A stretch of DNA of 55,163 bases from Candidatus Gastranaerophilales bacterium (lineage in GTDB: Bacteria > Cyanobacteriota > Vampirovibrionia > Gastranaerophilales > Gastranaerophilaceae): positions 1 to 55,163 of the forward strand of contig JAEEXX010000003.1 of NCBI GenBank assembly GCA_016287985.1, read 5' to 3'. The translations under genes and the position numbers were made by a program. Below, piece after piece: positions 39,774 through 40,353 of this stretch (position 1 is its first letter; each line of letters opens with the position of its first letter). The notes under the pieces are model-generated. The model saw only the letters and a program-made list of their open reading frames with translations. It had not been told where the DNA came from and did no database searches.

Positions 39774-39846
39774 ATTATACTCCTTTTTTACATACAAAAC
39801 TCAATTTTGATTTTATCATAAAATTCGTACGCAGCAAAATAAACAT

Positions 39847-40318
39847 CAAAATGTATATTTTGGTGTAAAATTCTTTTTATTCTTTTAATAATCAGATTTT
39901 TTAATTAATTTATATTTTGTACATTTCTTTCTCTTTAGTTGCGACGTAAAGAGAAAGAAATGTACCCAAAGAAAGAGAAAACACGCAATAGTTTTCTACA
40001 TCCTAACTTTCGTTCGGCTGTGTAATTTTTCGGCTTTGCCGAATCTTTCCGGCTCGCTATCGTTACTACGTAACACGCTCGCAAAAAACACATTCCCGAC
40101 CATAACGGAGTGAACAATCAATGTGAATGAGGCAGTGACAAGCGGGCATTGTTTGAGTGGGCTTTGCCCACGAGTTTGCCCGCTCTTTGCCGAATTCTAC
40201 CATTGATTAGTGAACGGAGTTTCGGTCGGTGGTTTCTTTACGGAACTTTCTTTGACATCAAAGAAAGTTCCAAACAAGTAAATTATATATATACACCAAA
40301 ATATACATTTTGGTGTAT
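39847..40318. repeat. ~470-bp non-coding nested palindromic element bounded by a 21-bp inverted repeat (CAAAATGTATATTTTGGTGTA / TACACCAAAATATACATTTTG)
   Basis: Multiple nested stems read directly: 19-bp perfect stem 39919-39937/39947-39965; GTGGGC-TTT-GCCCAC inside GCGGGCA...TGCCCGC inside AATCAATG...CATTGATT inside CCGACC...GGTCGG; ~14-bp hairpin near 40242-40272. Confidence 0.8.
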
Positions 40319-40324
40319 TAGCTC

Positions 40325-40353
40325 TTGACTTTATTGATAAAAATATATAGAAT
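40325..40353 (+). promoter_or_regulatory. Sigma70-type promoter candidate for the zinc-ribbon gene
   Basis: TTGACT - 17 nt - TAGAAT, ~57 bp upstream of the ATG at 40410. Confidence 0.55.

Follow-up and report, generated by a model that had tools for sequence, protein, structure and literature searches.

MITEs such as Correia/NEMIS are small, gene-less, multi-copy elements with inverted ends. The intrastrand triplex repeats known as PIT, BoxC and TM_ECO are abundant in bacteria, intergenic and linked to genome instability (Holder et al. 2015, PMC4666352). PIT repeats are the subject of Hoyne/Maher 2000, as cited in Holder et al. (PMC4666352), where no link between TM_ECO and transposons, phages or plasmids is reported and a purine-motif triplex is said to be unable to form in RNA. 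Two other systems invite comparison, namely Xer-exploiting elements, including the pdif modules of Acinetobacter plasmids (PMC5357621, PMC5790767), and REP/BIME sequences with their RAYT (PMC3733652). Triplex repeats and MITEs are each known, and no report of their combination was found in the open-access literature, in which a search for mirror repeats or triplexes combined with MITEs or insertion sequences gave only PMC4666352 as relevant. The role of DNA triplexes in bacteria has been a standing question since the BoxC/PIT repeats, and the repeat family described here gives a direct way to test it.

The window, i.e., the whole stretch of 55,163 nucleotides that was analysed, comes from a Candidatus Gastranaerophilales bacterium (contig JAEEXX010000003.1 of assembly GCA_016287985.1). 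Its spacer of about 480 bases between mtnP and a zinc-ribbon gene is one copy of a gene-less repeat family that is dispersed among Gastranaerophilales of the gut. On balance we favor the reading that the family is a MITE-like mobile repeat, probably moved by a trans-acting enzyme, with near-palindromic inverted ends and inward-facing, triplex-capable motifs. The element shares small size, lack of genes, inverted ends and multiple copies with Correia/NEMIS, but differs in that no target duplication was found and no parent is known, and in its near-palindromic ends and triplex motifs. It resembles PIT/BoxC/TM_ECO in the order of pyrimidine arm, loop, purine arm, second loop and mirror purine strand and in being dispersed and intergenic; here, however, the motif is A-rich, stands in inward-facing pairs at the ends of a longer mobile element, and has loop–tail pairing and longer stems. 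Inverted, possibly dif-like sites, and a site shared by adjacent units, recall the Xer-exploiting elements and pdif modules, whereas this element is gene-less, chromosomal and dispersed, and its similarity to dif is only moderate. Like REP/BIME it is palindromic, intergenic and mosaic, but it lacks association with a Y1 transposase. The favored reading would add a distinct repeat family, whose ends are possibly of the dif type, to a gut lineage that has been little studied.

The window element and its relatives

A sequence-only reading had described the spacer as a mostly non-coding segment, bounded by a 21-bp perfect inverted repeat and holding a 19-bp hairpin near the left end, a TTCGGC-TTT-GCCGAA hairpin, a multi-tier nested stem and a hairpin of about 14 bp near the right end, and all of these were recovered (Table 1). 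The 21-bp match sits inside a 25-bp inverted repeat of 96% identity (39843-39867 / 40292-40316), both arms of which belong to near-palindromes of about 28-30 bp, so that the pair reads as inverted and nearly also as direct repeats. No internal ORF exceeds 60 aa. Folded as single-stranded DNA, positions 39841-40318 reach -97.2 kcal/mol; dinucleotide shuffles give -45.2 ± 4.4, and no shuffle out of 100 was equally stable (z = -11.8), in support of the original observation.

Table 1. Features of the window element (positions in the window)
Feature	Positions	Strand	Basis or remark
Left terminal near-palindrome, inverted end site	39840-39869		TAAACATCAAAATGTATATTTTGGTGTAAA; best match to right site inverted, 24/26
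Triplex motif: pyrimidine-rich 5' hairpin arm	39919-39937	+	Sequence
Hairpin loop GTTGCGACG	39938-39946	+	TTGCG at 39939-39943 complementary to downstream CGCAA
Purine-rich 3' hairpin arm	39947-39965	+	Sequence
Candidate third strand, mirror of 39948-39960	39968-39980	+	Sequence; family-wide copy-specific mirror covariation
CGCAA, candidate pseudoknot stem with the loop	39984-39988	+	Complementarity to loop TTGCG
Internal hairpin TTCGGC-TTT-GCCGAA	40029-40043		Same position in other copies, different stem sequences
Central nested stem CCGACC..AATCAATG..GCGGGCA..GTGGGC-TTT-GCCCAC..TGCCCGC..CATTGATT..GGTCGG	40096-40229		
Short candidate third strand of right-end hairpin	40233-40239	-	AAAGAAA on minus strand; weaker than left motif
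Right-end purine/pyrimidine hairpin, inward-facing	40242-40271	-	Arms 40242-40255/40258-40271
Right terminal near-palindrome, inverted end site	40290-40319		Right site ATACACCAAAATATACATTTTGGTGTAT, 40291-40318

A genome-wide copy search, which had been proposed together with the sequence-only reading, contradicted the refuting case named there, a lone copy without relatives. Some dozen related sequences, complete or fragmentary and 64-78% identical, lie on 11 other contigs of its own genome (draft, 2.01 Mb, 211 contigs, 92.9% complete, 5.0% contamination), where the terminal-palindrome pattern occurs at 13 sites, compared with 0 for the reversed control. Among the draft MAGs compared, the window element matches 14 of 21 sampled genomes of the same genus and, elsewhere in the order, 7 of 15; with a better-preserved copy from genome G052 as query, the genus yields matches in 56 of its 65 genomes. 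The copies sit in unrelated contexts with unrelated flanks, and several contigs start or stop inside them, as is typical for repeats in draft assemblies. Full copies mostly span 390-560 bp between the terminal sites. Several internal hairpins occupy constant positions even though their stem sequences vary between copies, with further palindromes nested within, and five copies (C180, C36, C183, C122 and C137) have a core similar to the central nested stem of the window. G052 has a tandem pair of copies with the middle palindrome common to both. Among the marks of a MITE, short length, no coding capacity, multiple dispersed copies and terminal inverted repeats are found in this family.

A viral contig also carries a copy, and the gene downstream of it looks like the phage gene that is found at copy C122; in IMG/VR, a scan for the terminal palindrome gave no match and a scan for one exact triplex variant hit 2 contigs. 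At L260:1-5343, a family element stands between two divergent, nearly identical gene copies, an inverted duplication that includes the upstream regions. A further palindromic unit (GGATTGTCGGC.. / ..GCCGACAACC) interrupts the loop or arm of triplex-motif hairpins as an insertion at L116:2090-2790, L161 and L169. Locus L269, with 1.2 kb between its motifs, was considered as an autonomous element and rejected, since it reads as non-coding nested repeats. Searches of 65 draft genomes by end pattern and by locus found no transposase or autonomous relative with the same ends, in assemblies that break at repeats.

Terminal sites, insertion history and the moving enzyme

The two ends of one copy match better inverted than direct (16 pairs vs 3). 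Between copies, the end arms differ (GGTG, GATG, GTTG, TGTTAC), and so do the centers (e.g., TGCA, TTAA, GAAT), whereas the two ends of the same copy agree in both when inverted. The inverted identity within a copy is 24.4/26 in pairs that were picked partly for similar ends; with palindromes picked only as palindromes, regardless of end similarity, it is 15.3 vs 12.4 ± 0.7, above all 20,000 permutations. A palindrome of at least 10 of 13 pairs lies at the outer flank of 60 of the 112 end motifs (54%), compared with 8% of control windows. The dif-type terminal palindromes are missing at some motif-bounded elements, for example the L066 member in genome G019.

Five relatives share the zinc-ribbon promoter TTGACT...TATAGAAT (40325-40353), and all of them lack the element upstream of it. 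The neighbors on the mtnP side differ in relatives, and the order of mtnP and the zinc-ribbon gene is not conserved, so there is no exact empty site for the window copy and only the zinc-ribbon side is informative. The L066 member offers a closer comparison, as between flanks that align G019 has about 500 bp where G002 has 73 bp; G002 thus holds a near-empty orthologous site, with flank divergence that precludes base-exact borders. Across 17 end pairs, no length or offset gives consistent target-site duplicates, and the frequent TA at the ends belongs to the palindrome; we therefore use the term "MITE-like" rather than "a MITE". The sequence-only reading had offered a non-autonomous mobile element or a structured RNA, and had suggested looking for empty sites and target duplications. 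Its mobile half is supported by the dispersed copies with unrelated flanks, the co-varying inverted ends, the tandem copies with a common end, the element-free promoter in all five relatives and the near-empty site of another member; the target duplication was not found.

The moving enzyme would act on the terminal palindromes. It is possible, if only tentatively so, that the repeat is a Xer/dif-type cassette, whose ends are tyrosine-recombinase core sites at which XerC/XerD of the host (or a relative) would act to excise, invert or insert the unit; this mainly concerns the enzyme and is compatible with a triplex at the ends. The terminal sites are indeed palindromes built as two inverted arms round a short center, the centers are copy-specific and identical between inverted ends (in pairs picked partly for end similarity), adjacent copies have a common site, and no target duplication is seen. 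Moreover, the sites match the host dif at 13.8/26, compared with 9.8 ± 0.65 for symmetric shuffles, and the dif of E. coli at 15.3, compared with 8.9 ± 0.7, and the host encodes 4 tyrosine recombinases. But the copies are spread over at least 12 contigs, none is listed at the host dif (G000:C93:2160), the arm sequences drift, and the absolute identity to host dif is only about 14/26. With this identity and with copies away from dif, a Xer-type mechanism is live but unproven. The host dif candidate, ATAATATATATTATGTAAG, occurs once per genome in six genomes and lies at the GC-skew switch of G075. Candidate chromosomal dif sites of the genus, CTATAATATATATTATGTAAG-like, are found at L324 (G000:C93:2160), at L318-L322 and at the GC-skew switch of G075:C5.

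An unseen DDE transposon as the mover is likewise live but unproven. Slightly less probable than the Xer account is that the family is an ordinary DDE-transposon MITE with long inverted ends, in which the hairpins and triplex motifs are passengers. The inverted ends, size, intergenic dispersal and lack of genes are as expected from such a MITE, whereas the missing target duplication, the palindromic ends with covarying arms, and a triplex motif that co-varies and keeps a fixed inward-facing place are not.

Candidate triplex motifs inside the ends

In the favored reading of a MITE-like repeat moved in trans, the motifs inside the ends are part of the element's design. Near each end, a pyrimidine arm, a loop and a purine arm are followed by an inner purine tract that is the mirror, and not the complement, of the arm. 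In the left motif of the window, the arm segment AAAGAGAAAGAAA recurs as its exact mirror AAAGAAAGAGAAA (13/13) just 3' of the 19-bp hairpin and is followed by CGCAA, so that a single strand carries both hairpin arms, pyrimidine and purine, as well as the mirror purine tract, as in a PIT repeat; the 9-nt outer loop exceeds the 1-6 nt of the ITxF search rule, and the third strand at the right end has only 7 nt. In other copies the mirror follows the changed arm, e.g., AAAGAGAAGAAGAAAA / AAAAGAAGAAGAGAAA and AAAGAGAGGAGAAAAA / AAAAAGAGGAGAGAAA. Over 132 hairpins, the match to the own mirror is 10.5, compared with 8.0 ± 0.13 for permuted partners. In a set of 33 non-redundant hairpins, chosen by the loop alone and thinned to different arms, the mirror–stem covariation is 12.3 vs 8.4 ± 0.29, and none of 20,000 permutations reaches 9.8; the copies share ancestry, for which permutations control only partly. 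A direct-repeat control is weaker than the mirror (9.1 vs 8.05), and a 200 kb contig of a relative nearly without the family, together with its three shuffles, contains no motif.

DNA copying gives direct or inverted repeats and not mirror repeats, and the mirror covariation is therefore best explained by selection on structure. The best reading of the selected structure, in which identical purines would face each other, is an intrastrand R.R.Y triplex of the antiparallel purine-motif type. Such copy-specific covariation of a third strand is comparative evidence that goes beyond composition or templated copying, and it points to molecules and mutants for study.

The loop is also complementary, copy by copy, to the tail just past the mirror (10.4 vs 9.2 ± 0.16), through loop/tail pairs that include unrelated ones (TTGCG/CGCAA, TTCGG/CCGAA, TTGCA/TGCAA, and GGGG/CCCC in Bacteroidales arrays). 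Taken together, loop–tail pairing and mirror predict an H-type pseudoknot with the third strand as the connecting strand. Consecutive motifs are oriented plus-minus in 54 cases (7 of them a single hairpin counted from both strands), minus-plus in 20 (1 of them likewise), minus-minus in 5 and plus-plus in 0, which amounts to inward-facing pairs. Watson–Crick pairing between the left and right mirror strands was considered and rejected, as it shows no covariation (10.82 vs 10.88).

In short, some enzyme supplied in trans would move the repeat via its two near-palindromic inverted ends. Inside each end stands an inward-facing module: a hairpin with a pyrimidine arm, a loop and a purine arm, then the mirror purine tract and the loop-complementary tail. 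Whenever replication or transposition leaves its strand single, this module would fold into a triple helix of the antiparallel purine-motif type, with the loop–tail pseudoknot as a lock. The triplex may form in the cell, and may be used in mobility as an end signal or protector. More speculatively, the single-stranded triple-helix pseudoknot could itself be an end signal under selection, read by or protecting the transposition intermediate, in modules that recur across several phyla. This suggests a possible route by which triplex repeats spread, namely as the ends of small mobile elements.

Similar designs were seen at other loci. In Bacteroidales MAGs (L195:770-1500 and L234:3800-4600), tandem units, of about 193 bp in L234, have the same triplex-plus-loop-pairing design, with GGGG/CCCC in place of TTGCG/CGCAA. 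A similar mirror motif at L235:290-350 lies in a contig labelled as a Diapherotrites archaeon, for which mis-binning is possible. Besides two A-rich end motifs, the elements of G052 (L110:2500-3300, L158-L162) carry a central TM_ECO/BoxC-like G-rich motif, CCCTCTCC-GGCG-GGAGAGGG-TTA-GGGTGAGGG.

Structured RNA and other readings

The structured-RNA half of the original proposal is not supported: no Rfam family passes the gathering score except the flanking tRNA, with only sub-threshold miRNA-like hairpin scores otherwise, and the co-varying signal is that of a purine-motif triplex, which according to PMC4666352 is unable to form in RNA. A transcript of the pyrimidine strand might instead fold into a U.A-U triple-helix pseudoknot that has some function in the cell, as a structured RNA or regulatory element. 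The topology on that strand would indeed match an H-type pseudoknot in which the stem accommodates a pyrimidine strand in its major groove. We regard this as unlikely, given that the copies sit in unrelated contexts, that relatives have the same promoter without an element upstream, and that the G.T wobbles of the loop–tail pairing fit the purine strand (11.66 vs 10.31) better than the pyrimidine strand (10.81 vs 9.98). The strand opposite the purine-motif strand may still have a role as RNA.

Template switching during replication can perfect palindromes and equalise inverted ends. The family could accordingly be a passive product of such palindrome correction together with homologous recombination, with no selection at all; we consider this improbable, because template switching, which could perfect the palindromes and equalise the ends, cannot create or maintain mirror repeats, and the two motifs within an element resemble each other no more closely than motifs taken from different elements (10.4 vs 10.6 of 14).

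Least probable is single-strand transposition of the REP/RAYT or another HUH type: within the genus, 36 of 63 genomes have Y1 transposases, but none is found in the element's own genome or in the element-bearing G015, G016 and G060, the motif stands at 0 of 20 Y1 loci, and the Y1 genes that were fully read are flanked by a different repeat, GGTTGGGCATACCTGCCCAAC; RAYT as the mover was rejected on these grounds. Loci L336, L337 and L338 hold RAYT-like Y1 genes with GGTTGGGCATACCTGCCCAAC-type or related palindromes both within the gene and beside it, which make up a REP family of their own in the same genus.
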